A DNA stretch of 46,562 bases, taken from positions 1 through 46,562 of the forward strand of contig NZ_JMPI01000053.1 of assembly GCF_000735355.1 (NCBI RefSeq), written 5' to 3'. Numbering within the stretch: position 1 is the first letter of the stretch; the number at the start of each line of letters is the position of its first letter. Positions 4,989 through 45,820 of the stretch are shown here, piece after piece. Both the position numbers and the translations under genes were made by a program. The stretch is from Buttiauxella agrestis ATCC 33320. Its GTDB lineage: Bacteria; Pseudomonadota; Gammaproteobacteria; Enterobacterales; Enterobacteriaceae. Below the pieces are notes generated by a model. The model was not told the DNA's origin. It searched no databases and saw nothing but the letters and a program-made list of their open reading frames with translations.

Positions 4989-5726
4989 ATGACGCGTATG
5001 AAATATCTGGTGGCAGCAGCCACGTTGAGCCTGGCTTTGGCTGGTTGCTCCAGTTCCAAGGATGAGGTTCCTGATAATCCACCTTCTGAGATCTATGCGA
5101 CTGCCCAGCAAAAGTTGCAGGACGGTAACTTTAAAGCGGCGATAACGCAACTGGAAGCGCTGGATAACCGTTATCCGTTCGGGCCTTACTCACAGCAAGT
5201 GCAGTTAGATCTTATTTACGCTTACTATAAGAACGCTGATTTGCCGCTGGCTCAGGCTGCGATCGATCGCTTTATGCGTCTGAATCCTACCCATCCAAAC
5301 ATCGACTACGTACTTTACATGCGTGGTCTGACGGATATGGCGTTGGATGATAGCGCATTACAAGGTTTCTTCGGTGTAGATCGTTCAGACCGAGATCCTG
5401 CTCATGCTCGTGATGCTTTCAACGATTTCTCTAAACTGGTTCGTGGTTATCCGAACAGCCAGTATGTCACCGATGCCACCAAGCGTCTGGTGTTCCTGAA
5501 AGATCGTTTAGCGAAATATGAGCTTTCGGTGGCGCAATACTACACTAAACGCGGCGCGTGGGTTGCAGTAGTTAACCGTGTCGAAGGAATGTTGCGCGAT
5601 TTCCCTGATACTCAGGCCACTCGTGATGGTCTGAAGTTGATGGAAAATGCTTACCGCGAAATGCAAATGCCGGCTCAGGCCGATAAAGTTGCTAAAATTA
5701 TCGCGGCTAATAGCAGCAAAGCCTGA
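4989..5726 (+). CDS. bamD: BamD, outer-membrane assembly lipoprotein of the BAM complex
   Basis: Essential periplasm-facing lipoprotein that binds BamA and helps fold beta-barrel proteins into the outer membrane. The 245 residues begin with a type II signal peptide ending in the lipobox LAGC, with Cys20 as the lipidated residue. The rest is tetratricopeptide-like repeats. The length equals E. coli BamD and the sequence is highly conserved. It is a single gene closed by its own terminator. Confidence 0.97.
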
Positions 5727-8729: not shown

Positions 8730-9851
8730 TTACGGGCGGCTATCATTAGCCTGGCGTAATAAAGTGCGGCTTTCACTCTGGAAGCGCTGTGCGTAATCAC
8801 CAAACCAGTGTTCAACCTTACGGAAGCTGTCGATAAATGCTTGTTTATCGCCATGCTCTAGTAAGCCTATGGCCTCACCAAAACGTTTGTAATAGCGCTT
8901 AATCAGATCCAGATTGCTTTCTGAAGACATAATAATGTCTGCGTAAAGCTGCGGATCTTGTGCGAACAAGCGCCCTACCATTGCCAGTTCCAGACGATAA
9001 ATCGGCGATGAAAGCGCAAGCAACTGCTCTAACTGAACATTCTCTTCAGCCAGATGAAAACCATAGGCAAAGGTTGCGAAGTGGCGCAGCGCCTGAATAA
9101 ACGCCATATTCTGATCGTGTTCAACTGCGGTGGAGCGATGTAAACGTGCCCCCCAAACCTGAATCTGCTCCAGGAACCACTGGTACGCTTCCGGCTGGCG
9201 ACCATCACAATAAACCACGACTTGCTTCGCAAGGCTTCCGCTATCAGGGCCAAACATAGGATGCAGACCGAGCACAGGTCCCTGATGTGCAGCCAACATA
9301 GCTTGCAATGGGCCATTCTTCACGGATGCGAGATCGACCAGAATACAGTCATCAGGCAGCCGGGGTAATTGAGCGATAACCTGTTCTGTGATGTGAATCG
9401 GAACACTCACAATCACCATACCAGCATCAGCCATTAACTCTGGCGCTTTAGCCCAGTCTTCTTTTTCAAGAATACGAACCTGATAGCCTGACAAAGTGAG
9501 CATCTTTTCAAACATGCGCCCCATCTGACCGCCACCACCGACGATAACCACCGGGCGTAACGCAGGAAACAGTGTTTTGAAACCTTTGTCGTTCTCGCTT
9601 GAGTAAGACTCTCGCATCACGCGGCGCAGAACATCTTCAATCAGATCAGGTGGAACTCCCAAAGCTTCAGCTTCTTTGCGGCGTGAAGCCAACATTGCAG
9701 CTTCACGTTCCGGGACATAAATCGGTAAACCATACTGGCTTTTGACTTCGCCAACTTCTGCTACCAGTTCCAGGCGGCGTGCCAGTAGCCCCAGCAACGC
9801 CTTATCCACTTCGTCAATTTGATCGCGTAGCGCGGTCAATTCAGCCACCAT
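8730..9851 (-). CDS. tyrA: TyrA, bifunctional chorismate mutase/prephenate dehydrogenase
   Basis: Converts chorismate through prephenate to 4-hydroxyphenylpyruvate with NAD+, the committed route to tyrosine, and is inhibited by Tyr. The 373 residues equal the E. coli enzyme: N-terminal AroQ mutase (1-90), a GGGGQMG dinucleotide-binding loop near 105-111, and catalytic His197 in [12 protein letters not shown]. It is the second gene of aroF-tyrA, starting 11 bp after aroF, so both respond to TyrR. Confidence 0.98.
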
Positions 9852-9862
9852 AGTAAAACCTC

Positions 9863-10933
9863 TTATGCCTGACGCGCCGCAAGCGTACCGTTCAGATCTT
9901 TATGAATCTCACGCAGTAAAGTCTCTGTCGTTTCCCAATCGATGCATGCATCTGTTACAGAAACACCGTATTTCATTTCACTGCGAGGTTGCTCTGAAGA
10001 TTGATTTCCCTCGTGGATGTTACTTTCAATCATCAGGCCAATAATAGAACGATTGCCATCTTTGATTTGAGCGACAGCTGATTCAGCGACGCCCGGCTGG
10101 CGGCGGTAGTCTTTGTTTGAGTTGCCATGGCTGCAATCTATCATCAAGGCCGGGCGGAGTCCCGCCTGCTCCATCTCTTTTTCACACTGCGCCACATCTG
10201 CCGGGCTGTAGTTTGGCGCTTTGCCGCCGCGTAAAATCACGTGGCCATCAGGATTTCCCTGAGTTTGCAGTAAGCAAACCTGGCCCGCCTGGTTGATGCC
10301 GACGAAACGGTGCGGCATAGATGCGGCACGCATCGCATTGATCGCAGTACCGAGGCTGCCATCAGTACCATTTTTGAAACCAACTGGCATAGAAAGGCCG
10401 GACGCCATTTCACGGTGAGTCTGAGATTCAGTAGTACGCGCACCGATTGCAGACCAACTGAACAGATCGCCTAAGTATTGCGGGCTGTTTGGATCAAGCG
10501 CTTCGGTCGCCAACGGCAGGCCCATGCTGACCAGCTCTACCAGCAAGTTACGTGCGATTTTCAAACCACCTTCAACATCAAACGAACCGTCCATATGAGG
10601 ATCGTTAATCAATCCTTTCCAGCCCACAGTAGTACGTGGCTTTTCAAAATAGACGCGCATCACGAGGTACAGACTATCGCTGACTTGTTCAGACAGTGTT
10701 TTAAAACGACGAGCATATTCAATCGCGGTTTCAGGATCGTGGATTGAGCAAGGTCCACACACCACCAACAGACGAGGATCGCGGCCAGCGATAATGTTGG
10801 AAATCGTCTGACGGGACTGTTCAATCTGCGCTTCCTGAGCGGCAGTCAGCGGGAATTCCGCTTTCAATTGGTCCGGAGTGATAAGTACCTGTTCGTCAGA
10901 AATATGAACGTTGTTCAGCGCGTCTTTTTGCAT
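9863..10933 (-). CDS. aroF: AroF, Tyr-sensitive DAHP synthase
   Basis: Condenses phosphoenolpyruvate and erythrose 4-phosphate, the first step of the shikimate pathway. The 356 residues equal E. coli AroF. Metal and active-site motifs include [10 protein letters not shown] with Cys62, [25 protein letters not shown] and VTDACIDW. The [15 protein letters not shown] start and the pairing with tyrA identify the tyrosine-inhibited isozyme rather than AroG or AroH. TyrR boxes lie upstream. Confidence 0.98.
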
Positions 10934-11026
10934 GATGGCGATCCTGTTAGCTCGTTTGCGATAGTCGTTTCCTCAGTGAGGATGGAGCTACCTTATCATC
11001 TTTAGTAAAGATTGCAATCCATTTTA

Positions 11027-11044
11027 CGTAAACAATACGTTACA
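11027..11044 (-). promoter_or_regulatory. TyrR box 1 of aroF-tyrA
   Basis: Minus-strand TGTAACGTATTGTTTACG matches TGTAAA-N6-TTTACA with two mismatches and keeps the key G and C. It lies about 95 bp upstream of the aroF start, in the promoter region. Confidence 0.72.
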
Positions 11045-11088
11045 CAAACAAAATAATTGCCGTTTAAGGCACATTTAAACATTATAAT

Positions 11089-11106
11089 CGTAAATAAAAA
11101 TATACA
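11089..11106 (-). promoter_or_regulatory. TyrR box 2 of aroF-tyrA
   Basis: Plus-strand CGTAAATAAAAATATACA fits the palindromic TyrR consensus with two mismatches. It is centred 62 bp from box 1, about six helical turns, which suits cooperative binding by TyrR hexamers. Between them is an inverted repeat GTTTAA-N7-TTAAAC (minus strand, 11062-11080) that may be a further weak site. Confidence 0.65.
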
Positions 11107-11221
11107 CCCTGCATAAACAAGCCCGTTTCCTGCGCATTCAAGCATTCTTTAAAAAATAACGTCATGGGGAACCATAACCACTCTATGCTCAGAGAATACC
11201 CTTTGAAATGGATATCCCCGA

Positions 11222-11593
11222 ATGCGTTACTTAGCTCTGATTCCTGCCTTGTTATTGACTGGCTGTTATGTCGACCCCTATACCCATGCCCCAACCCCCT
11301 CCCCCACCGACTGGTATCAGGCTGGCTGGGATGATGCGATGTCGGGACAACCCATAAGAAGCAACCCTGTCATTGCGCATTTGCATAACGATGAAAATGT
11401 TGACCGTGAGGAATGGTTAAAAGGTTATGCCGGTGGCCAGGAGCGGATTTGTGATCCTAAATTTTTAGAGATCCTGGGAGAAAGCGGAAAGTCGTTCCCA
11501 GCCAGCTGCGAAACACTTCCGGATGTAGCCGAGCGGCAAGCGCAATGGGAAAAAGCGAGTCGTAAAGGCTTTCAGGACTCTTTCATGCATTAA
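11222..11593 (+). CDS. yfiL: YfiL, small outer-membrane-type lipoprotein of unknown function
   Basis: 123-residue protein with a short lipoprotein signal ending in LLTGC, with Cys15 as the lipidation site. The mature part is hydrophilic with no transmembrane segment. I recognise it by position, divergent from aroF, and by general likeness to E. coli YfiL, whose role is unknown. In E. coli yfiR-yfiN-yfiB follow here. In this genome a terminator and rplS follow at once. The ribosome site is weak. Confidence 0.75.
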   Translation: MRYLALIPALLLTGCYVDPYTHAPTPSPTDWYQAGWDDAMSGQPIRSNPVIAHLHNDENVDREEWLKGYAGGQERICDPKFLEILGESGKSFPASCETLPDVAERQAQWEKASRKGFQDSFMH

Positions 11594-11594
11594 G

Positions 11595-11629
11595 CAAAAA
11601 AAAGGGCTGCCAAATGGCAGCCCTTTATA
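11595..11629. terminator. Bidirectional terminator between yfiL and rplS
   Basis: Eleven-bp stem AAAGGGCTGCC/GGCAGCCCTTT with an AAAT loop. The A run at 11596-11603 gives a T tract for the leftward rpsP-rplS operon. The stem also closes the rightward yfiL transcript. Confidence 0.9.
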
Positions 11630-11650
11630 TGGATGTCGCGTTAGCGAATC

Positions 11651-12810
<1,160 letters not shown>

Positions 12811-35051: not shown

Positions 35052-36455
35052 ATGGGAAAATTACAGCCGTTTGCACTGTGGCTGGCATGCAGCCTGTGTA
35101 TAGCCCAGGCGCATGCCGATGACACACCACAATTTATCAGTACTCAGGAACTCTCTGAGCAACAACTACCGGCACTTGATGGCTCCACCAGCTTACCGTT
35201 GGACGCCCCCGCGCCGGGAACGCTGACTCTCAATGATGCGGTCAACCGCGCCGTTACCTGGCATCCGAGCATTCACGAAGCCATCGGCAAACTGGCCGGG
35301 CAATCTGAACAGGTCAACGTCGCAAAATCAAAATACTATCCGCAAGTCACGGCGGGCATGAATAACGGCTACAGCAACGGTTACACCGACAGCGGTTTTA
35401 GCCCCTCGCTGGTGTTGTCCGTTTCGCAGATGCTTTATGACTTCGGCAAAGTCTCAAGCCAGGTACGAGCCGAAAGCGCAGGCGTGGCACAAGAGCAAGC
35501 AAACGTGCTGGTGAGCATCGACAATGTCGGCCACGACACCGCTAATGCCATGATTCAGGTGCAGATGTGGCAACAAATGGTTGATATCGCCAAAGATCAA
35601 TTAGATGCCCTGAGCGCGATTGGGAAATTAACCGAGAAGCGCAACGATGAAGGGGCCACGTCAATGTCGGACGTGGTGCAAACCAATGCGCGTATTGAAT
35701 CTGCTCGTTCACAACTCATTCAATATCAGTCCAATCTCGACAGCGCCCAGGCCACATTAACGAGCTGGCTGGGCTGGAACAACCTCAACGGTATCAGCAA
35801 CGAGTTCCCTGATAAGCTAGCAAAAAGCTGTGACATCGCCAAACCGGATGACCGCTTAGTCCCTGCGGTTCTCGCCTCGTGGGCGCAGGCCAGTGTCGCC
35901 CAGGCCAATCTTGATTACGCCAACGCGCAGATGACGCCAACCATCTCGCTGGAGCCGCAGGTTCAGCACTATCTGAATGACAAATACGCCAGCCACGAAG
36001 TGCTGGATCGCACCCAATATTCCGCGTTTATCAAAGTCGAAATGCCGCTTTACCAGGGCGGCGGCTTAACGGCGCGTCGCAATGCGGCCAGCCACGCGGT
36101 GGAAGCGGCACAATCTGGAGTACAACGCACCCGCCTCGACATTCGCCAGAAACTGATGGAATCGCGCAGCCAGGCACTCGGGCTGATGGGCGCGGTTCAG
36201 GTGCTGCAACGCCAGGAACAATTGAGCGAACGCACCCGCGAACTCTATCAACAGCAATATCTGGATTTAGGTTCACGCCCGTTGCTCGACGTACTCAACG
36301 CGGAACAGGAAGTTTTTCAGGCCCGTTTCGCGCAGCTACAAATCCTCAGCCAACTTCATCAATTGCAGCTCAACTGTTTGTATAACTCTGGCCGCTTACG
36401 CAACGCATTTGGCCTGGAGCACCGCACCATCCAGTCACTGGAGATCCAGCCATGA
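35052..36455 (+). CDS. bapB: BapB, TolC-family outer-membrane channel of the type I secretion system
   Basis: 467-residue outer-membrane efflux protein. A Sec signal peptide is predicted at 1-22 (cleavage after AHA). The body shows the duplicated long-helix and beta-strand pattern of TolC/LapE, including LSVSQMLYDFGKVSSQVRAE and VEMPLYQGGGLTARRNAASH. It would form the outer-membrane exit duct for BapA with BapC and BapD. AGGGAC precedes the ATG. The stop overlaps bapC by 4 nt (ATGA). Confidence 0.92.
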   Translation: MGKLQPFALWLACSLCIAQAHADDTPQFISTQELSEQQLPALDGSTSLPLDAPAPGTLTLNDAVNRAVTWHPSIHEAIGKLAGQSEQVNVAKSKYYPQVTAGMNNGYSNGYTDSGFSPSLVLSVSQMLYDFGKVSSQVRAESAGVAQEQANVLVSIDNVGHDTANAMIQVQMWQQMVDIAKDQLDALSAIGKLTEKRNDEGATSMSDVVQTNARIESARSQLIQYQSNLDSAQATLTSWLGWNNLNGISNEFPDKLAKSCDIAKPDDRLVPAVLASWAQASVAQANLDYANAQMTPTISLEPQVQHYLNDKYASHEVLDRTQYSAFIKVEMPLYQGGGLTARRNAASHAVEAAQSGVQRTRLDIRQKLMESRSQALGLMGAVQVLQRQEQLSERTRELYQQQYLDLGSRPLLDVLNAEQEVFQARFAQLQILSQLHQLQLNCLYNSGRLRNAFGLEHRTIQSLEIQP

Positions 36456-38647
36456 GCCAAACACCGCCTCCTGTTGATGAACACCTGACTGAACATGCGC
36501 TAAGCCACTGGGCGCAGTTGATTAGCCACGTCGCCGCGCATTATCGCGTCGCCTGCTCTCCCGGCACCATCCAGGCAAACGCCCCGTGGTTTAAAGACAA
36601 AAACATGCTCTCGGCACTCACACAGTTATCGCGCCAGGCGGGGCTTTCATTTCATATGATGAGCGCCCCGGAACTGGCGATTGGCAAATGGCGGTTGCCT
36701 CTTGCGGCGAGCCTGAACAACGGGCAACTGGCGGTCATCGAACATTTCGACGGCGAGGATACGGTTGAAATTTGCGTTATTGACGGCGAACGCCAGACCA
36801 ACCGGGTATCGCTCGCAACGCTGCTGCCGGAAATCCGTTTTGTAGCCGCACTTCGCCCGCTGTCGGCGCTTAAAGACAGCCGCGTGGATGCGTATATCTC
36901 ACGCTTTAGCCCAGACTGGCTAAAAGAGCTGGTGATGCAGGATCTGCGCCCTTACGGCCCGGTGATGCTGGCGGCTTTCCTCATCAATGTGCTGTCGCTT
37001 TCCGGCATCCTTTTCTCGATGCAGGTTTATGACCGCGTGATCCCCGCACAGTCGTACCCCACGCTGTATGTGCTGGCTTCCGGCGTGTTGCTGGCGGTGA
37101 TATTTGGTTTTGTGCTGCGCGTGGCGCGTGGTCATATTATGGATGTGCTCGGCAAACGGGCGGATATGCGTGTTTCCGATCGCGTATTCAGTCACGCGCT
37201 GCGCCTGCGCAACAGCGCCATCCCCCGCTCCACCGGCAGCTTTATTTCCCAGCTTCGCGAACTCGAACAGATCCGAGAAATGATCACCTCATCAACGATC
37301 TCGACGATCGTCGATTTGCCGTTCTTCTTTATGTTCATCATCGTACTGGCGATTATTGCCCCGCAACTGGCGTGGATTGCGCCGGTCGCCGCCGTACTGA
37401 TGGTGCTGCCGGGCATCCTGCTACAGAAAAAACTGGCGATGCTCGCCAACCAGTCAGCTCACGAAGCGACGCTGCGTAATGCGGTATTAGTGGAGAGTGT
37501 TCAAGGGCTGGAAGACATCAAACTGATGCAGGCGGAGAACCGTTTCCTGCAACAATGGAACAGCTACATTCGCATTACGGCGGAATCTGGCCTGCGCACC
37601 CGCCAGCTTTCGCAAGGGCTGATTAGCTGGGGAATGACGGTGCAAAGCCTGGTGTATGCGGCGGTGATTCTCTTCGGCGCACCGCTGGTCATCGAAGGCG
37701 ATATGACCACCGGTGCAATGGTTGCCGCCTCAATGTTAGCCTCAAGAATGATTGCCCCGATGGCAAACCTGTGCGGCGTGCTGGCTCGCTGGCAGCAGGT
37801 CAAAGCCGCGAAACAGGGACTGGACAGCATTATGCAGTTGCCGGTGGAAACCCAGCGCGACGAAAGCCTGGTGCATCAGGATATTTTTCACGGCCATTAT
37901 CTGTTTGAAAACGCGCAGTTTCGTTACCACAACGAAGACCAGCGCATCCCTTTACGCATTACTCGCCTCGAGATCCAGCAAGGCGAGCGCGTGGCAGTTT
38001 TAGGGCGCAACGGCGCGGGGAAATCCACGCTATTGCAGGCGTTAGCGGGCGGCGTCGATTTAATCAGCGGTGATGCGCGGCTCGACAACCTGAGCATGAC
38101 GCAAATTGATATGGCGGATTTGCGCCGCAATATCGGCTTTATGAGCCAGAACGCCCGTCTGTTTTACGGCACGCTGCGCGAAAACCTCACGCTTGGCGCA
38201 CCGAATGCCAGCGACGAAAATATCTTCGAGGTGCTGGAAATCAGCGGTGCGGGCAACTTTGTTAAGAGTCTGCCAAAAGGACTCGACCACGCCATTATGG
38301 AAGGCGGAACCGGTTTATCCGGTGGGCAACGCCAGTCGATTTTGCTCGCCAGAATGCTGTTACGCTCGCCCAATATTGTGCTGCTCGATGAACCGACGGC
38401 CTCGCTCGACGACCACACCGAACGCGAGTTCATTCAGCGCCTGGGTCTTTGGCTTGGGCATCGCACATTGATTGTCGCCACTCACCGCGTACCGATGCTT
38501 GAACTGGTCGAGCGCGTGCTGGTTCTCAAGGAAGGCCAACTGGTGATGGATGCACCAAAAGCTCAGGCGCTCAGTAACAGTAACAACAGCCGCGCCACCG
38601 TACAGCCAAATGGGCGGGAGTGGAAAAATGAAAACCAATCAGCGTGA
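36452..38647 (+). CDS. bapC: BapC, type I secretion ABC transporter (permease/ATPase, LssB/LapB-type)
   Basis: 731-residue inner-membrane exporter. The N-terminal 140 residues form a C39-like domain without an evident catalytic Cys-His pair, the kind that binds substrate without cutting it. A six-helix membrane domain follows (about 160-450). The ATPase carries Walker A GRNGAGKST (about 518-526), signature LSGGQRQ (about 620) and Walker B IVLLDEPTASLDD (about 640). The ATPase would power BapA export using its C-terminal signal. Coupled to bapB by ATGA and overlapping bapD by 20 nt. Confidence 0.93.
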   Translation: MSQTPPPVDEHLTEHALSHWAQLISHVAAHYRVACSPGTIQANAPWFKDKNMLSALTQLSRQAGLSFHMMSAPELAIGKWRLPLAASLNNGQLAVIEHFDGEDTVEICVIDGERQTNRVSLATLLPEIRFVAALRPLSALKDSRVDAYISRFSPDWLKELVMQDLRPYGPVMLAAFLINVLSLSGILFSMQVYDRVIPAQSYPTLYVLASGVLLAVIFGFVLRVARGHIMDVLGKRADMRVSDRVFSHALRLRNSAIPRSTGSFISQLRELEQIREMITSSTISTIVDLPFFFMFIIVLAIIAPQLAWIAPVAAVLMVLPGILLQKKLAMLANQSAHEATLRNAVLVESVQGLEDIKLMQAENRFLQQWNSYIRITAESGLRTRQLSQGLISWGMTVQSLVYAAVILFGAPLVIEGDMTTGAMVAASMLASRMIAPMANLCGVLARWQQVKAAKQGLDSIMQLPVETQRDESLVHQDIFHGHYLFENAQFRYHNEDQRIPLRITRLEIQQGERVAVLGRNGAGKSTLLQALAGGVDLISGDARLDNLSMTQIDMADLRRNIGFMSQNARLFYGTLRENLTLGAPNASDENIFEVLEISGAGNFVKSLPKGLDHAIMEGGTGLSGGQRQSILLARMLLRSPNIVLLDEPTASLDDHTEREFIQRLGLWLGHRTLIVATHRVPMLELVERVLVLKEGQLVMDAPKAQALSNSNNSRATVQPNGREWKNENQSA

Positions 38648-39818
38648 CGTCGCCATGGACGACCCGGATATTCAGCGCGAGCGCGAGTTTTCCGGTGCCA
38701 GCCGTATCATCATCATCAGCGTGCTGCTGTTTATTTTGCTCGGCGTGTGGGCGTGGTTTGGCACACTCGATGAAGTCTCGACCGGCACCGGGAAAGTGGT
38801 GCCGAGTTCTCGCGAACAGGTGCTTCAGTCGATGGATGGCGGCATCGTCACCGAAGTGTTGGTCCACGAAGGCGACAAAGTTGAAGCCGGGCAAATCGTG
38901 GCGCGCCTCGACCCAACCCGTTCGGAATCAAACGTGGGCGAAAGTGCTGCGCGTTACCGTGCGTCCCTGGCCTCCAGCGTGCGGCTTAACGCGGAAGTGA
39001 ACGATTCGCCGCTGGTTTTCCCCGATTCGCTCAAAGCCTGGCCGGAACTTATCGCCTCCGAAACGCGCCTGTATAAAAGCCGCCGTGCACAGCTCAACGA
39101 CTCCGCATCCGACATACAAGATGCGCTGGTTTCGGTGAACAAGGAACTGGCGATAACGCAACGGCTGGCGAAAAGCGGTGCGGCGAGTAACGTCGAAGTG
39201 CTGCGTTTACAGCGGCAAAAAAGCGATCTGCAACTCAAAATCACCGACCTGCGCTCGCAATATTACGTCCAGGCACGCGAGGCACTTTCCAAAGCGAACG
39301 CTGAAGTCGATATGTTATCGGCCATTATCAAAGGCCGTGAAGACTCCGTGAGCCGCATGACCGTACGCTCGCCAATGCGCGGCATCGTGAAAAATATCCA
39401 GGTGACCACCATCGGCGGCGTTATCCCACCCAACGGGGAAATGATGGAAATCGTACCTGTAGATGACCATTTACTGATTGAAGCTCGTCTATCCCCGCGC
39501 GACATTGCGTTTATCCACCCCGGCCAGCGTGCGCTGGTGAAAGTCACCGCCTACGATTACGCCATTTATGGCGGGCTGGAAGGCGAAGTTGAAACCATTT
39601 CGCCGGACACCATTCAGGACAAAGTTAAGCCAGAAATCGTTTATTACCGGGTATTTATCCGCACCCATCAGGACTATCTGGTGAATAAAGTCGGGCATCA
39701 TTTTTCGATATCGCCGGGGATGGTCGCCACCGTAGACATTAAAACCGGGCAAAAAACCATCGTCGATTACCTGATAAAACCGTTTAACCGCGCCCGCGAA
39801 GCGCTGCGTGAACGTTAG
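38628..39818 (+). CDS. bapD: BapD, HlyD-family membrane fusion protein
   Basis: 396-residue periplasmic adaptor linking BapC to BapB. One N-terminal membrane helix (about 26-45, IIIISVLLFILLGVWAWFG) is followed by a lipoyl/barrel-sandwich segment (VLQSMDGGIVTEVLVHEGD), long helical hairpins and a C-terminal beta-barrel (PVDDHLLIEARLSPRDIAF). The start at 38628 (MKTNQRDV) has GGGAG 7 bp ahead; an in-frame ATG 78 bp upstream lies deep in bapC and is less likely. It is the last gene before ssrA. Confidence 0.92.
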   Translation: MKTNQRDVAMDDPDIQREREFSGASRIIIISVLLFILLGVWAWFGTLDEVSTGTGKVVPSSREQVLQSMDGGIVTEVLVHEGDKVEAGQIVARLDPTRSESNVGESAARYRASLASSVRLNAEVNDSPLVFPDSLKAWPELIASETRLYKSRRAQLNDSASDIQDALVSVNKELAITQRLAKSGAASNVEVLRLQRQKSDLQLKITDLRSQYYVQAREALSKANAEVDMLSAIIKGREDSVSRMTVRSPMRGIVKNIQVTTIGGVIPPNGEMMEIVPVDDHLLIEARLSPRDIAFIHPGQRALVKVTAYDYAIYGGLEGEVETISPDTIQDKVKPEIVYYRVFIRTHQDYLVNKVGHHFSISPGMVATVDIKTGQKTIVDYLIKPFNRAREALRER

Positions 39819-39875: not shown

Positions 39876-40239
39876 GGGGCTGATTCTGGATTCGACGGGA
39901 TTCGCGAAACCCAAGGTGCATGCCGAGGGGCGGTTTGCCTCGTAAAAAGCCGCAAAAAAATAGTCGCAAACGACGAAAACTACGCCCTAGCAGCTTAATA
40001 ACCTGCTAAGAGCCTTCTCTCCCTAGCTTCCGCTCTTAAGACGGGGATCAAAGAGAAGTCAAACCCAAAAGAGATCGTGTGGATACCTTGCCTGTGGTTG
40101 AAGCATTAAAACTAATCAGGATAGTTTGGTAATGGCGTGTCTACCCGCAGTTGCCCGGCGAATGTAAAGATAGACTAAGCATGTAGTACCGACGGCGTAG
40201 TAATTTCGGACGGGGGTTCAACTCCCCCCAGCTCCACCA
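39876..40239 (+). ncRNA. ssrA: tmRNA (10Sa RNA)
   Basis: 364-nt transfer-messenger RNA that rescues stalled ribosomes with SmpB and adds a degradation tag. The 5' end GGGGCTGATTCTGGATTCGA and the 3' end GGACGGGGGTTCAACTCCCC plus CAGCTCCACCA form the Ala-tRNA-like domain. The internal reading frame at 39966-39995 encodes ANDENYALAA followed by two TAA stops. Conservation with E. coli ssrA is very high. The CCA is encoded, and the gene's 3' end is the integration target of the adjacent element. Confidence 0.98.
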
Positions 40240-40371: not shown

Positions 40372-40427
40372 AATTGGTATACGTTTAGGTATACGGTAAG
40401 ATGTAGGCCTAAAAACGTATACCAATT
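40372..40427. promoter_or_regulatory. Inverted repeat with three GGTATAC cores upstream of the integrase
   Basis: Perfect 15-bp inverted repeat: AATTGGTATACGTTT (40372-40386) and AAACGTATACCAATT (40413-40427). A third direct copy of GGTATACG lies at 40388-40395 between them. It ends 17 bp before the integrase ATG, with the ribosome site AAGGAG in between. Likely roles are integrase arm-type binding, autoregulation or excisionase binding. Confidence 0.6.
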
Positions 40428-40444: not shown

Positions 40445-41644
40445 ATGGCACGGACAACGCGCCCCCTCACTAACACCGAAGTTCTACGAGCAAAAGCAGG
40501 CGAGAAAGAGCTGACGCTTCATGACGGCGAAGGTTTATTCCTTATCGTTAAGACGACCGGAAAAAAGCTATGGCGTTTTCGGTATCAAAGACCGACCACC
40601 AAAAAAAGAACGATGGTTGGTTTAGGTTCCTTCCCTGCCCTTTCACTTGCGGATGCCCGAGCATTACGAGCTGAATATCTTTCATTGTTAGCCAAAGGCA
40701 TCGACCCACAGGTTCAAGCAGAGGTCACAGAGGAACAGCAGCAAATTGCCCTCGACAGTATTTTCTCCACCGTGGCCGCTAACTGGTTCCAGCTCAAAAG
40801 CAAAAGCGTCACAGCAGATTACGCGAAGGATATTTGGCGTTCTCTGGATAAAGACGTGTTCCCAGCCATTGGTGAGATCCCTGTTCAGGAAATCAAAGCC
40901 AGAACGTTAGTTGAAGCACTTGAACCCATCAAAGCGCGTGGAGCACTTGAGACAGTTCGCCGTTTGGTACAGCGCGTCAATGAAATAATGATATATGCGG
41001 TTAACACCGGTTTGATTGATTCAAACCCGGCATCCGGTGTTGGTATGGCTTTTGAGCGGCCTAAAAAGCAAAACATGCCAACCTTACGACCGGAAGAACT
41101 TCCAAACCTCATGCGCTCACTAGTGATGTCTAACCTTTCGGTTTCGACTCGTTGTTTGATTGAATGGCAGCTCCTGACACTTGTGCGCCCTGCGGAGGCT
41201 TCCGGTACTAGATGGGAAGAAATCGATCTCGATACCAAGCTGTGGACTATTCCAGCAGAACGAATGAAGGGCAAACGCGAGCACGTTGTTCCTTTATCTC
41301 CTCAGGCATTAGAGATTCTGGAGGTAATGAAGCCTATTAGCTCTCACCGAGAACATGTTTTCCCGAGCAGGAATGATCCAAAGCAAGCAATGAATAGCCA
41401 AACGGCTAATGCTGCTATAAAACGCATCGGATATGGTGGAAAGTTAGTCGCACATGGGCTGCGCTCAATTGCAAGTACAGCCATGAACGAAGCGGGTTTT
41501 AACGCTGATGTGATTGAAGCAGCTCTGGCACATTCAGATAAAAATGAAGTTAGAAGAGCATATAATCGCTCAACTTATTTAGTGCAAAGAATAGAGTTAA
41601 TGGATTGGTGGGGAAAAAACGTCCGCACTTTATTGAATAAATAA
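40445..41644 (+). CDS. P4/CP4-57-type tyrosine recombinase (integrase)
   Basis: 399-residue site-specific recombinase of the P4 integrase family, closely resembling IntA of CP4-57, which also uses ssrA. The N-terminal DUF4102 arm-binding domain (LTLHDGEGLFLIVKTTGKKLWRFRY) is followed by a core-binding domain and the catalytic domain. Catalytic residues visible are Arg248 (LVRPAEASG), His337 and Arg340 (AHGLRS), His363 (LAHSD) and nucleophile Tyr373 (RRAYNRS). AAGGAG lies 8 bp before the ATG. It would integrate and, with a Vis/AlpA partner, excise the element. Confidence 0.95.
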   Translation: MARTTRPLTNTEVLRAKAGEKELTLHDGEGLFLIVKTTGKKLWRFRYQRPTTKKRTMVGLGSFPALSLADARALRAEYLSLLAKGIDPQVQAEVTEEQQQIALDSIFSTVAANWFQLKSKSVTADYAKDIWRSLDKDVFPAIGEIPVQEIKARTLVEALEPIKARGALETVRRLVQRVNEIMIYAVNTGLIDSNPASGVGMAFERPKKQNMPTLRPEELPNLMRSLVMSNLSVSTRCLIEWQLLTLVRPAEASGTRWEEIDLDTKLWTIPAERMKGKREHVVPLSPQALEILEVMKPISSHREHVFPSRNDPKQAMNSQTANAAIKRIGYGGKLVAHGLRSIASTAMNEAGFNADVIEAALAHSDKNEVRRAYNRSTYLVQRIELMDWWGKNVRTLLNK

Positions 41645-41672: not shown

Positions 41673-43916
41673 ATGTATGATTCATTCGTTACAACTAAAG
41701 TACGTCCCATTCGGAAACTATTTATTATCAATAGTGATGATAAGACAACTTTTATAACAATATTCAATTCCTTAATGCACGATATTGATGGGATTTTAAA
41801 TATAATACTGCAAGTAGATGAGAAATTATTCTCAGAAATAAATAAAGAATTTGTCAATCGTTATGATCCTGATGTGATTCTTAACTACTCCACCTTGGAT
41901 GATAATAAACTTTCAGAGCATTTTAATACAATCACGTACAACTCCTCATCAAAGAACTATAATTTACATGATTTTTGCTCCCCATTATTTACATTTACTG
42001 GCACTCCTTATCTAGCTACTAAAGATCCATCTCTAATCCCCAAAAAAGTGTATGCATCTTCAAAAATAGAATTCAGTTCTAAATCTCTTTTATACGCAAT
42101 GAATTTTGGTGTATTGGATAGAAAAAATTATGTTCGACTCAAAAGAATTACGTCTATTTTTCAAGATGTATCTTTTTCCTGCATTGAAAATGCAAATATT
42201 ATCAAATCGATTCTTTTTGATGGTAATTTAAAATATCTTAACCTGACAAACAACATTGGTTCCGCATACACATCCTCAACAATATATGAGCAGAGTTATA
42301 ATAACAAAAGATACTTCAATGAGAAAGGGAAGCAATATTTATTCATATCCCAGCCTACAAACTTAAATTTCATCATTTATTTTTGGAATACTAGAAACAG
42401 TTATAACCTCGAACGTTTAGCATGGATTCCTATTGATTTTTTAGATGATAATAATGACATTATCAATGAAAATACAATACTGGTCTTTAATGATGAAAAA
42501 GATAAATCCGATGTGGTCGCTAAATTTCCTGATAACGAATGCATCATTGCAGATAGATACTATTTTCCTGGTGAAAAAGAACGTTGGATTAGTTTTGAGC
42601 ATGATCAATACCTTACAGGCACCTCGCAAGTTCAAGCCTTAACTCATCCAAATGAGAAAACATTCTCAGACATCGGTTTTGGCGGTGGGTTTATATTTGA
42701 AATTAGGGGGCCATCCGAATTATCATATCCAAAACAGCATTTTCTAGGTACACTTTTCACCGACAATTTAATTGACCAAGCAACTTTCCCACAATATTTC
42801 ACCCGTTTATCTAATAAGGGATTATCAAAATACTTCAAACATTTTAACCCCTACAAAACCTCGGGTATTACAGAGTCTTTTAAGTTGCCATTATTTAAAG
42901 ACCTGCTAAAGTCGCATTTTTTGCATTATAACCTAACAATCGAACAAACACCTAAAACATTCATCCTTGAGCAACTAATCCAACTTATCGGAGGAATTAA
43001 TAACACTTACTTACTTAGCGATGAGAGAATATTCGAATTATTAATATCATTAACACCTCATACGCGGACAGAAAGACTTGTTAAAAAGGCTTTTCCTGAA
43101 ATTGAAAACCATTCATCACAGGATGAATTAATATCATATATTGGCACTCTGAAAGATCGAGGTGAGATATCACTTCCATCAACAGTATTAACAATGGAAA
43201 ATATATCTTCAAAATTAACAGGGAAATCAGATCCGCATAACCTTTATCATGAAAAACTACAAATTCTTAATAACTCCAAAATACTATTAAGAGGAAAACA
43301 CTTCAAATGCAATCATTGCTCTGCAATGCTTTGGTTTCCTCTTGAATCATTCCAAAGAACAAATTACTGTGTTGAATGCGGTAACTCCATTCACATACCT
43401 ATATTTATTGATGGCAAAATTCAAAACGATCATTACAAATTAAACCAATTAGTCTCTAGAGCTGTAGACCAGGGGCAATTATCCACACTTCTTTTAATAA
43501 ATTACATCAATAAGCAAGGTTATAGTCATTTCAACTATGAAACAAATTATGAAATATTTGAAAGTGGTCGGTTAATATCAGACATAGATGTTTTTGTTAA
43601 GATTGGTAAAAAACTTGGGTTATGTGAATGCAAATCTCATAGTCCTTTTAGTAACAAACAAATAGATGAGTTACTGAACACTGCTAAAATAATAAAATGT
43701 AACTTTATTATTCTATCCTGCCTCCTTAGTAAGGATGACATAATGATTAAAGAGACTGTAGATTATTTAAAAAACATAGAAATAAACATACCCGTATTTA
43801 TTATCACGAAAGATGAATTATTTTCAGAGAAACCACAGAGAATATACGAATACTTTAAAGTGGAAAATAGAACAGGTGAATTTTATAAAGGTCCAGTTCT
43901 TATAGGAAACCAATAA
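41673..43916 (+). CDS. Unknown 747-residue protein with zinc ribbon and PD-(D/E)XK nuclease-like C-terminus
   Basis: I do not recognise this family. Residues 1-520 are globular-looking, rich in Asn, Ile, Phe and Tyr, with no membrane segment. A zinc ribbon follows with Cys546-Cys549 and Cys566-Cys569 (KCNHC and YCVEC). The last 130 residues show a restriction-endonuclease-like pattern: Glu627/Glu630 in a helix, Asp637-x-Asp639 (ISDIDVFV), then Glu652-x-Lys654 (GLCECKS) on the next strand, and a conserved-looking IIKCNFIILSCL. The DNA is roughly 30% G+C by eye on sampled lines, far below its neighbours, so it was acquired separately. It lies alone between the integrase (28 bp before) and cos/psu, the cargo site where P4 satellites carry anti-phage systems. 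A single-gene defence nuclease is an inference. Confidence 0.75.
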   Translation: MYDSFVTTKVRPIRKLFIINSDDKTTFITIFNSLMHDIDGILNIILQVDEKLFSEINKEFVNRYDPDVILNYSTLDDNKLSEHFNTITYNSSSKNYNLHDFCSPLFTFTGTPYLATKDPSLIPKKVYASSKIEFSSKSLLYAMNFGVLDRKNYVRLKRITSIFQDVSFSCIENANIIKSILFDGNLKYLNLTNNIGSAYTSSTIYEQSYNNKRYFNEKGKQYLFISQPTNLNFIIYFWNTRNSYNLERLAWIPIDFLDDNNDIINENTILVFNDEKDKSDVVAKFPDNECIIADRYYFPGEKERWISFEHDQYLTGTSQVQALTHPNEKTFSDIGFGGGFIFEIRGPSELSYPKQHFLGTLFTDNLIDQATFPQYFTRLSNKGLSKYFKHFNPYKTSGITESFKLPLFKDLLKSHFLHYNLTIEQTPKTFILEQLIQLIGGINNTYLLSDERIFELLISLTPHTRTERLVKKAFPEIENHSSQDELISYIGTLKDRGEISLPSTVLTMENISSKLTGKSDPHNLYHEKLQILNNSKILLRGKHFKCNHCSAMLWFPLESFQRTNYCVECGNSIHIPIFIDGKIQNDHYKLNQLVSRAVDQGQLSTLLLINYINKQGYSHFNYETNYEIFESGRLISDIDVFVKIGKKLGLCECKSHSPFSNKQIDELLNTAKIIKCNFIILSCLLSKDDIMIKETVDYLKNIEINIPVFIITKDELFSEKPQRIYEYFKVENRTGEFYKGPVLIGNQ

Positions 43917-44000
43917 CCATCATTTCATAGGCAATTACAAAGAGGTCATACGCATCGTTACAAAATGCTCAGATGCAATAAATAAATTCCTCAGCGCGCA

Positions 44001-44019
44001 ATGCTATCCCCGCCACGCC
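44001..44019 (-). other. P2/P4-type cos site (cohesive-end sequence)
   Basis: Minus-strand GGCGTGGCGGGGATAGCAT matches 16 of 19 positions of the P2/P4 cohesive end as I recall it (GGCGAGGCGGGGAAAGCAC). It is followed on the same strand by TGCGCGCTGA, also as in P2. The flank on the other side contains CACCCCGGAGC/GCTCTGGGGTG (44059-44087), a hairpin next to cos. This would let P2-like helper terminase package the satellite. Confidence 0.75.
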
Positions 44020-44120
44020 TGCCCGCTTCATGGGTGGGTTTTAATGCAGGTGCATGAACACCCCGGAGCCGCGCCAGCTCTGGGGTGATAAGGTGTGAAA
44101 AATACGGGGTTTTACATGCA

Positions 44121-44146
44121 AAACCATGCACCGTAATGCATGGTTT
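44121..44146. terminator. Hairpin downstream of psu
   Basis: Perfect 10-bp stem AAACCATGCA/TGCATGGTTT with a 6-nt loop, 34 bp past the psu stop on the minus strand. It could end the sid-delta-psu transcript or be part of the cos region. The following T run is short. Confidence 0.5.
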
Positions 44147-44180
44147 AATTGAATTAAATGGCGGTGTTTTCAAGTCGATT

Positions 44181-44756
44181 TTATGCGGGTGGTTGCTGGC
44201 TCAGTTCTGTCTGCCGGTGCGCGTAAACATGGTTTTGTGCCGGTGTATATTTCTGCTGAGTATCAGCCCGCGAAGCCTTATCAGGCCTGAATCCGATGGC
44301 TGTCAAAATGTCGCTGTTTTCCGCTGTGTAATGAATTTCCGGGCCGGTCGCCAGATAATCCCGCAGGGCTTCCCCGACGTAATGCGTCGCTCGCCGTATG
44401 GCCAGCTCGCGGATTGCCGCCGGAAGCTGATTAATCCCCATTAATTCCGGTGCCAGCGTACTGACCAGTGCTGCCCCGTTTTGCTTCATAAATGCATTGA
44501 GTGAATGACAAATACTGGTGTGCTGTACCGCTTCATGCGAGCGAATATAACGCCCCGCCGCACAGGTGATTTCCCACTGTTTAACGTCGATATATTCACT
44601 CAGATAAGTAATCCGCTCTGCGTTCCGGGGATGTCCCGGTGCAAGCTGTTCATCCAGCGCAGTCTCTGCCGCTTTCAGTTCATCTTTTTTATTCTGCCAG
44701 GCGGTTTTATTCGCCTGACACACGGCAAAGGCCTGCTGTAATGGTGTGTCGCTCAT
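44181..44756 (-). CDS. psu: Psu, polarity suppression and capsid decoration protein
   Basis: 191-residue homologue of P4 Psu (190 residues). Psu inhibits the Rho termination factor and also decorates and stabilises the small P4 capsid. Shared stretches with P4 Psu include AAGRYIRSHEAVQH, APELMG and DSDILT-IGFRPD. It is mostly helical, as expected for the knotted all-helix dimer. It is the last gene of the late operon sid-delta-psu, starting 18 bp after delta. Confidence 0.93.
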   Translation of the reverse strand: MSDTPLQQAFAVCQANKTAWQNKKDELKAAETALDEQLAPGHPRNAERITYLSEYIDVKQWEITCAAGRYIRSHEAVQHTSICHSLNAFMKQNGAALVSTLAPELMGINQLPAAIRELAIRRATHYVGEALRDYLATGPEIHYTAENSDILTAIGFRPDKASRADTQQKYTPAQNHVYAHRQTELSQQPPA

Positions 44757-44774: not shown

Positions 44775-45014
44775 TCATTGTGTTGCTGACGGTCGCTGTT
44801 TCGGTGCTTTATCCATTTCACCCTGGATAAATTCATCAGCCGGTTCATCACCGGCTACTGGCTGGCGGATAATCGACTCAACGGACTCCATTGAGCGGAA
44901 CGTTGCTGAACAAAGCACATTCTGGCACTGGTAGTAGCGATGTTTGACGCTGTCAGACAGATAACGGCTTGTGCGTGAATGCGCCGAATTTCTACAAAAC
45001 GGGCAGTGCATCAT
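44775..45014 (-). CDS. Delta/Ogr-family late transcription activator (single zinc domain)
   Basis: 79-residue zinc-finger activator. The ligand pattern Cys4-x2-Cys7-x22-Cys30-x4-Cys35 is exactly the CX2C-X22-CX4C of P2 Ogr. It would contact the RNA polymerase alpha subunit at late promoters of the satellite and its helper phage. Classical P4 Delta is about 166 residues with two such domains in tandem; this one has a single domain, like P2 Ogr. AGGAGG precedes the ATG. It sits 2 bp after the sid stop. Confidence 0.9.
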   Translation of the reverse strand: MMHCPFCRNSAHSRTSRYLSDSVKHRYYQCQNVLCSATFRSMESVESIIRQPVAGDEPADEFIQGEMDKAPKQRPSATQ

Positions 45015-45016
45015 GA

Positions 45017-45820
45017 TCAGCCCTCCTGTTTTTTGTCTGCTTTCTCTGCCAGCTCTCTGGCTATCATCGACCGTTTGATGGGGCTGTCGTAAAGATTCAT
45101 ATCGACGCCGGTCAGCGCAGGACGGTACAGGCCAAGCTGAGAAAGCACGGGTTCATTTTCCATGCTGAAACTGTGGAGCTGGCTCTGGCTGAGAATGCGA
45201 TCGCCCAGCTCCTGTACCAGCGTTCTTTTCGGTGCCTCATTCCCCTGAATTTCCAGCTCGCGCAGGCGCAGGCAGAATGCCCGGATCAGGGCTGGACTCA
45301 GGTCTTTAATTGCCGCATTCCATTCATTGTTGGCATAGGTGCTAAAAGCGGTACGGTGTGCCTCGACATAGGCCTTGCCTGATGCGCAGGCACTGAGCAT
45401 GGCGCGGGTTTTATCTGTTTCCAGTTCGCCAATCAGCGCGGTGAACTCCTCCGCCAGCTCGCGATTAGCAATCCGCTGGCTGTGCTCGTTTTTCATTTCC
45501 GGTGTAATGGCACCTTTGAGGGCACGGAACCGGCTGCGCCAGCTGTGTTCTGCTTCCTCACTTTCTTCCAGTGCGACCTGTCGCTCCTTCTCGCTGCGGC
45601 TGATGGCGGTGCCAATCTCATTAAGCTCAAGCATGTTTGCGGTATGTCGGGATTTCGCCTCGCCGAAGGATTTCAGGTCGCGGGTCAGTGCGGCAGTGAG
45701 AACCTGGCTTTCCTGTCCGTTCAGCGTATTCAGCGCATTTTTGACGCCGTTCTGCGTTTTTCCATCCTGCGCGCTAGTGGTGGCTTTGGTTGCTGTGTTG
45801 AGTGAGTCAGTTTTCATCAT
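45017..45820 (-). CDS. sid: Sid, capsid size-determination protein
   Basis: 267-residue, highly helical and charged protein in the position of P4 sid, first gene of sid-delta-psu. P4 Sid (244 residues) forms an outer scaffold around the helper's capsid protein and forces a small T=4 head that fits only the satellite genome. Identification rests on operon order, length, helical character and general likeness. GGAG lies before two adjacent ATG codons (45820 and 45817). Confidence 0.87.
   Translation of the reverse strand: MMKTDSLNTATKATTSAQDGKTQNGVKNALNTLNGQESQVLTAALTRDLKSFGEAKSRHTANMLELNEIGTAISRSEKERQVALEESEEAEHSWRSRFRALKGAITPEMKNEHSQRIANRELAEEFTALIGELETDKTRAMLSACASGKAYVEAHRTAFSTYANNEWNAAIKDLSPALIRAFCLRLRELEIQGNEAPKRTLVQELGDRILSQSQLHSFSMENEPVLSQLGLYRPALTGVDMNLYDSPIKRSMIARELAEKADKKQEG

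Follow-up and report, generated by a model that had tools for sequence, protein, structure and literature searches.

Two groups of described systems come close to the gene considered here. First, the interval between the integrase gene (int) and psu of P4 phage satellites is a published hotspot for cargo and defence systems, and the available text of the study describing it reports more than 300 arrangements and many different systems in this slot (PMC9122126). Second, Card1, Can2, Cdn1, and VC1899 (DUF1887) are nucleases that combine a CARF domain with a PD-(D/E)XK domain and are known mainly as arms of type III clustered regularly interspaced short palindromic repeat (CRISPR) systems. Here, we analysed a 46,562-nucleotide stretch of Buttiauxella agrestis ATCC 33320 (contig NZ_JMPI01000053.1; the window), in which a gene that we call X lies between int and psu of a P4-like element. 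X shares the front-end-plus-nuclease layout of the Card1/Can2 group, and we lean toward reading it as a single-gene, CRISPR-independent defence cargo, namely, a PD-(D/E)XK nuclease that would be gated by its N-terminus.

X is a real, constrained gene. It is the sole long open reading frame (ORF) between the integrase and psu; the remaining ORFs of at least 60 amino acids that touch this interval span 60 to 119 amino acids, and all but two within 41673-44180 overlap X. Its G+C content is 31.2% (27% at third positions), compared with approximately 48% for the integrase region and approximately 56 to 58% for the chromosome preceding it. An earlier reading made from the letters alone (the sequence-only reading) had described an AT-rich, 747-codon gene standing by itself between a P4-type integrase and psu, in a hotspot for antiphage systems; the ORF listing and base composition bear out the description, and the hotspot is the published one introduced above. 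A full-length homologue occurs in 2 of 5426 Escherichia coli genomes (DNA identity, 68.9%; protein identity, 65%). Over 743 codons, comparison with this homologue gave a proportion of nonsynonymous differences (pN) of 0.206, far below the synonymous proportion (pS) of 0.78, which is saturated, and X is therefore under purifying selection.

The predicted PD-(D/E)XK nuclease fold of X is well supported. In a ten-row alignment, in which five rows are only 14 to 18% identical to X, the invariant positions include the four cysteines of a putative zinc ribbon, Asn591, an Arg-Ala-x-Asp-Gln-Gly block, Asp639, Glu652, Lys654, Phe659, and Gln663. Residues 531 to 730 of the predicted structure have block values of 74 to 92 in the predicted local distance difference test (pLDDT), and the modelled nuclease core runs helix-strand-strand-strand-helix-strand; strands hold both Asp639 and Glu652, and Lys654 follows closely. 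The sequence-only reading had proposed a zinc ribbon (Cys546, Cys549, Cys566, and Cys569) followed by a restriction-endonuclease-like signature (Asp637, Asp639, Glu652, and Lys654); all of these residues are where it put them, and their invariance, Asp637 aside, together with the predicted core, agrees with its assignment. It had recognised no family in the N-terminus, for which Pfam, PADLOC, NCBIfam, and PHROGs likewise gave no match at E ≤5, the listed matches lying solely in the zinc ribbon. Its split of the protein into residues 1 to 520 and 580 to 747 has to be redrawn, because the Card1/Can2-like unit starts at about residue 407 and takes in a helical region as well as the zinc ribbon.

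A wider set of 22 rows, fragments included, keeps Asp639 in 20 (two gaps) and Glu652 and Lys654 in 18 (two substitutions and two gaps). At the position of Asp637, 18 rows have an acidic residue (Asp or Glu) and two have Arg, which makes Asp639 the better candidate for the catalytic position. Trp238 of an FWNxR motif is aligned in 21 of the 22 rows, with the alignment there having little meaning for the fragments L074 and L075. Two members, L051 (8391-10667) and L052 (8201-10387), group together in the tree (support, 100/100); in both, the catalytic Glu and Lys are gone, whereas the zinc cysteines and FWNxR are retained. Some members thus probably act without a nuclease, and L051 and L052 are possibly regulators descended from one. 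The same pair is what favours an explanation of X as a nucleic acid-binding regulator or repair protein in which the nuclease is incidental; with the catalytic residues invariant in all ten rows of the first alignment, P4 and actinobacterial, we rank this as the least probable explanation considered.

The C-terminal nuclease unit of Card1/Can2 resembles that of X by fold and, over the core, also by profile. Structural alignment pairs approximately residues 407 to 730 of X with the post-CARF part of Card1/Can2, including its helical/beta addition, at a root mean square deviation (rmsd) of 4 to 5 between predicted models. The Asp and Glu-x-Lys/Asp residues of the Card1/Can2-type core correspond to Asp639, Glu652, and Lys654 in X, and the profile score was above those of all 100 shuffles. 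The C-terminal profile (A6) was built from 16 of 19 rows, leaving out L051 and L052, which have lost the catalytic residues, and the fragment L074; the hhalign profiles used 17 of 22 rows, leaving out L051, L052, L074, and two L075 pieces.

The differences lie elsewhere. X is nearly twice the length of the Card1/Can2 proteins and has a longer, different front end at the position of their CARF domain. It carries a four-cysteine zinc ribbon, whereas no CxxC occurs in the three Can2-like proteins examined (from four loci found; L081 was left out), and it lacks the LNxTxG-type CARF signature that all three possess. The N-terminus of X has a profile unrelated to Can2 but a model that looks Rossmann-like; by fold matching, it may adopt a CARF-like fold. 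The E 5 matches of X and of five relatives do not include PF09002 (Card1_endonuc), and neither do the 25 families listed out of 42; the B. agrestis genome has no such match at E 1e-10. Of the 11 carrier genomes tested with Cas10 models (Csm1 and Cmr2), 9, including that of B. agrestis, had no match at E 0.001. The exceptions are a metagenome-assembled genome (MAG), G1014, in which a Cmr2 match on a different contig exceeds the cut-off, and G1281, with matches below it. For the controls, matches came from 7 and 4 genomes out of 14. Because these searches gave X neither a PF09002 match nor a CRISPR association, and because it lacks the CARF signature, it should not be filed as Can2.

Family searches give X no name. 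X stays below the cut-off of every Pfam and NCBIfam model, and PADLOC-DB 2.0.0 has no family that matches X or the N-termini of members (0 of 16); among five relatives, the one PADLOC match is weak (CARF_PDDEXK, E = 0.022) and belongs to a Rickettsiales member. A viral structure search was likewise negative at E 0.001. Two Pfam domains match the nuclease core weakly, NERD in one family member (best E = 0.017) and HSDR_N_2 in two (best E = 0.035), below the curated cut-offs where scores are listed. A likeness of the N-terminal lobes to periplasmic-binding/LacI-type proteins was set aside as too weak for a family name (Foldseek E = 0.02 to 0.2, with low template modelling [TM] scores). X might also be a modification-dependent (type IV-like) restriction enzyme that recognises modified or foreign DNA directly through its N-terminus and zinc ribbon and then cuts it, with no ligand gating. 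The nuclease for such an enzyme is present, and no modified-base reader domain is among the matches listed for X, five relatives, or the N-terminal profile; we consider this explanation unlikely.

By sequence comparison, X belongs to a rare family that crosses phyla and is found on mobile elements. Starting from X, tblastn found no match at E 0.1 in 50,697 phage and 72,556 plasmid records, searches of 392 genomes of the family Enterobacteriaceae and 295 of its order returned only X itself, and peptide-pattern scans with X alone found no relatives in genome and viral contigs. Viral contigs also gave nothing in a peptide-pattern scan with alignment A1, and a viral scan with an actinobacterial alignment found no members. 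Eight weak C-terminal matches other than X itself (E ≤0.1, 398 genomes) were dropped, five (L005, L006, L008, L010, and L012) after their long ORFs looked unrelated and three (L007, L009, and L011) unread. The family was opened by one degenerate DNA pattern for Y-x-L-N-x-L-x-x-R-A-x-D-Q-G, followed by profile searches. The pattern matched 1 viral and 10 genome stretches, and a family match was afterwards found in 9 of those 10 genomes, the exception being that of L014.

The closest members share the setting of X. E. coli AR_0369 has its homologue between the integrase and psu of a P4 element, a Citrobacter P4 element (L016) has a close member in the order int-X-psu, and a P4-like element of Pectobacterium fontis (L013 and L018, one genome) has a homologue split into two frames (L013, 5983-8233) beside an intact-looking integrase. 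Two further viral contigs carry close members, L024 and, in part, L026. A Rickettsiales MAG member (L015) is 36% identical to X, and members in actinobacteria and an unassigned MAG are 14 to 18% identical. Searches around two of the latter yielded more distant members, with matches in 4 of 150 and 10 of 150 genomes, counts that take in the starting genomes and others already known. In a tree of 17 rows (five partial rows were left out), a branch (support, 93/92) sets the four P4 members apart, and the Rickettsiales member comes next (100/100).

In E. coli ECZP248 (L003, 12225-16951), the integrase and X proteins are the same as those of AR_0369 and lie at ssrA beside IS1; no other P4 gene is annotated within the 30-kb stretch, and the X cargo seems to have outlasted its P4 element. 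This persistence, along with the members on P4 elements and beside actinobacterial integrases, is consistent with X serving the mobile element, by excluding or damaging rival satellites, prophages, or plasmids or by stabilising the element. Such a role overlaps defence in practice, and by eye no antitoxin-like partner ORF lies beside X; as a separate explanation, it too appears unlikely.

The genomic context outside P4 elements was surveyed at 16 loci. An integrase model, built from six integrases of which five came from loci that it then scanned (L013, L050, L053, L056, and L070), matched within 2 kb of X in four loci (L053, L056, L058, and, weakly, L071 at E = 0.0039) and farther away in L070 (2.4 kb) and L050 (7 kb); the other 10 had no match. 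Independently, Pfam placed the integrases of L053, L070, and L050 over its cut-off and that of L056 below (E = 4.4e-4), and none was listed for the ORFs taken from L054, L058, and L071. In L055, the remains of an integrase N-terminus precede X in frame, again below the Pfam cut-off. An Amycolatopsis neighbour that looked integrase-like by eye had no Pfam match, and a recombinase-like ORF beside L069 was recognised by eye only; neither was counted. In Saccharothrix (L058, approximately 9754-12041), the X homologue and its adjoining integrase are both broken; judged by eye, this integrase is similar to the one in Umezawaea (L056), and the chromosomal genes flanking the two elements are alike.

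Spacing speaks for X as an accessory nuclease of the adjoining integrase, acting in integration or excision. On the same strand, X starts 28, 25, 18, and 19 bases after int in four P4 elements (28 in B. agrestis, with psu beyond it) and approximately 35 to 70 bases after it in Umezawaea, depending on the start codon, and integrase matches occur at the further loci given above. However, the P4 slot holds many different systems according to the available text of PMC9122126, and the 10 non-P4 loci have no integrase match; we give this helper role little credence.

Some neighbours are of a defence type. L055 has ORFs with TIR-model matches approximately 1 kb from X, and L057 has an ORF with an Avs1b match (E = 9.5e-24) approximately 1.4 kb away; five other neighbour proteins (from L050, L054, and L069) had no PADLOC match. 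The sequence-only reading had suggested PADLOC and genome context as checks on a defence role: context is favourable in part, with some homologues beside integrases or defence-type genes, and PADLOC has no model for X.

Returning to X as a defence cargo, we infer its nuclease activity, gating, trigger, substrate, and role as follows. The metal-dependent PD-(D/E)XK nuclease would be kept inactive before infection. The N-terminal region (residues 1 to approximately 405, with Rossmann-like lobes in the model) would respond to infection, its most likely cue being either a small ligand or some product of the phage, and the C-terminal unit (approximately 407 to 730, comprising the helical region, zinc ribbon, and nuclease core) would be the effector, like the nuclease half of Card1/Can2. 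Active X would then nick or cut nucleic acid of the phage or the cell, protecting the satellite and the host population. The defence role is argued from the P4 slot, where X sits in the same place and on the same kind of satellite as PARIS, TIR-NLR, gop-beta-cII, and others in the available text of PMC9122126, and from the presence of family members on mobile elements and of defence-type genes nearby. Analogy with the Card1/Can2 plan suggests ligand gating, as does the modelled Rossmann-like front end, whose first lobe has mostly pLDDT <50 in X and blocks of 69 to 92 at the matching residues 18 to 100 of an Amycolatopsis homologue.

Several results weigh against this proposal. The hhalign probability to a Can2-like profile is 51% for the core; it falls to 35% once the middle region is added and to 21% at full length, and whole chains superpose poorly in Foldseek (rmsd, 8 to 23; TM by target, 0.27 to 0.35 for the top five of each search). 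Two cyanovirin-N chains outrank Can2 in the C-terminal PDB search (E = 2.3e-4 and 2.8e-4); we treated that likeness as chance, each chain's score arising from two repeats at about E 2 singly. Residues 11 to 213 of X are modelled at pLDDT <50, the lobe picture relies on a homologue with 17% overall identity, and, because the N-terminal profile has no meaningful PDB, PADLOC, or Can2 match, the sensor is proposed from architecture alone. VC1899, which also lies outside type III CRISPR, is a weak RNase that is not regulated by cyclic tetra-adenylate (cA4) and does not nick DNA, according to the available text of PMC7969007; not being cA4 regulated, it gives no support for ligand gating outside CRISPR. 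Finally, the 10 loci without an integrase-model match count here too, and defence neighbours occur in only two of five loci (nine proteins tested).

A broader proposal, which we put forward tentatively as possible rather than probable, is that X founds a CRISPR-free, ligand-gated nuclease family, carried across phyla by mobile elements, that joins a Card1/Can2-type unit with a zinc ribbon to a new Rossmann-like sensor. This sensor would bind a signal of infection, a form of sensing that is not known to have been described, and one lineage would have lost the nuclease and kept the sensor.

X ties nucleases of the type III CRISPR arms to stand-alone genes on phage satellites and beside actinobacterial integrases. 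If X defends, then its trigger would be a new way for one protein to notice infection, and the family would bear on whether CRISPR ancillary nucleases came from defence genes of mobile elements or the reverse. The gene is also small enough for a direct test in laboratory E. coli. None of the systems described in the available text of PMC9122126 is recognisably X, which may be listed in its supplementary tables, and in the open-license literature we recognised no paper on X, nor did the accessions of the E. coli homologue and integrase lead to one. Its rarity, at 2 of 5426 E. coli genomes, may be why X has been passed over so far.

Features of X and of the surrounding P4-like element in the window
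Feature	Coordinates	Strand	Basis
X gene, 747-amino-acid protein	41673..43916	+	ATG start; ORF listing, homologues
Rossmann-like lobe 1, approximately residues 4-90	41682..41942	+	Predicted models (X and Amycolatopsis homologue)
Rossmann-like lobe 2, approximately residues 221-302, including FWNxR motif (237-241)	42333..42578	+	Modelled secondary structure, alignments
Helical middle region, approximately residues 407-534, within Card1/Can2-like unit	42891..43274	+	Predicted model, structural alignment
Putative zinc ribbon, residues 538-575 (Cys546, 549, 566, 569)	43284..43397	+	Metal binding suggested by cysteines
Conserved Y-x-L-N-x-L-x-x-R-A-x-D-Q-G stretch and next helix, residues 588-612	43434..43508	+	Alignments
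Predicted PD-(D/E)XK nuclease core, residues 602-711	43476..43805	+	Alignment, profile search, model
Core residues Asp639, Glu652, Lys654; also Gln663	43587-43589; 43626-43628; 43632-43634	+	Alignment
P4-type tyrosine integrase	40445..41644	+	Pfam Phage_integrase, E = 6.8e-32
tmRNA gene (ssrA), probable attachment site of element	39876..40239	+	Attachment role suggested by position
cos-proximal segment, common to E. coli P4 elements	43989..44083		DNA match to E. coli
psu-like gene	44181..44756	-	Order and strand as in annotated E. coli element
ogr/delta-like zinc-finger gene	44775..45014	-	Comparison with annotated E. coli element
sid-like gene	45017..45820	-	Comparison with annotated E. coli element

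From left to right, the window runs through the transfer-messenger RNA (tmRNA) gene, the P4-type integrase, X, the cos-proximal stretch, and the psu-, ogr/delta-, and sid-like genes. The last three are named solely by order and strand relative to the annotated AR_0369 element, and the name cos follows the sequence-only reading and the available text of PMC9122126. The DNA query matched 66 of 5426 E. coli genomes, and the segment in the table is covered in all 20 matches listed, at 88.7 to 93.7% identity. The contig ends inside the P4 element, and the same genome has a homologue of P4 alpha (61% identity) on a separate contig. A 22-base stretch is common to positions 40373-40394 of the window, beside the integrase, and 5437-5458 of the P4 alpha contig (L077); it may represent a repeat of the attachment site or a site at which the integrase binds. 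In AR_0369 (L002, 11114-12430), a DarT-type ADP-ribosyltransferase and a NADAR antitoxin-family protein are annotated immediately upstream of the P4 integrase. Before ssrA, ORFs at 35052-39818 of the window resemble a type I secretion set, named by eye only as a TolC-like outer membrane protein, an ABC transporter, and a membrane fusion protein.
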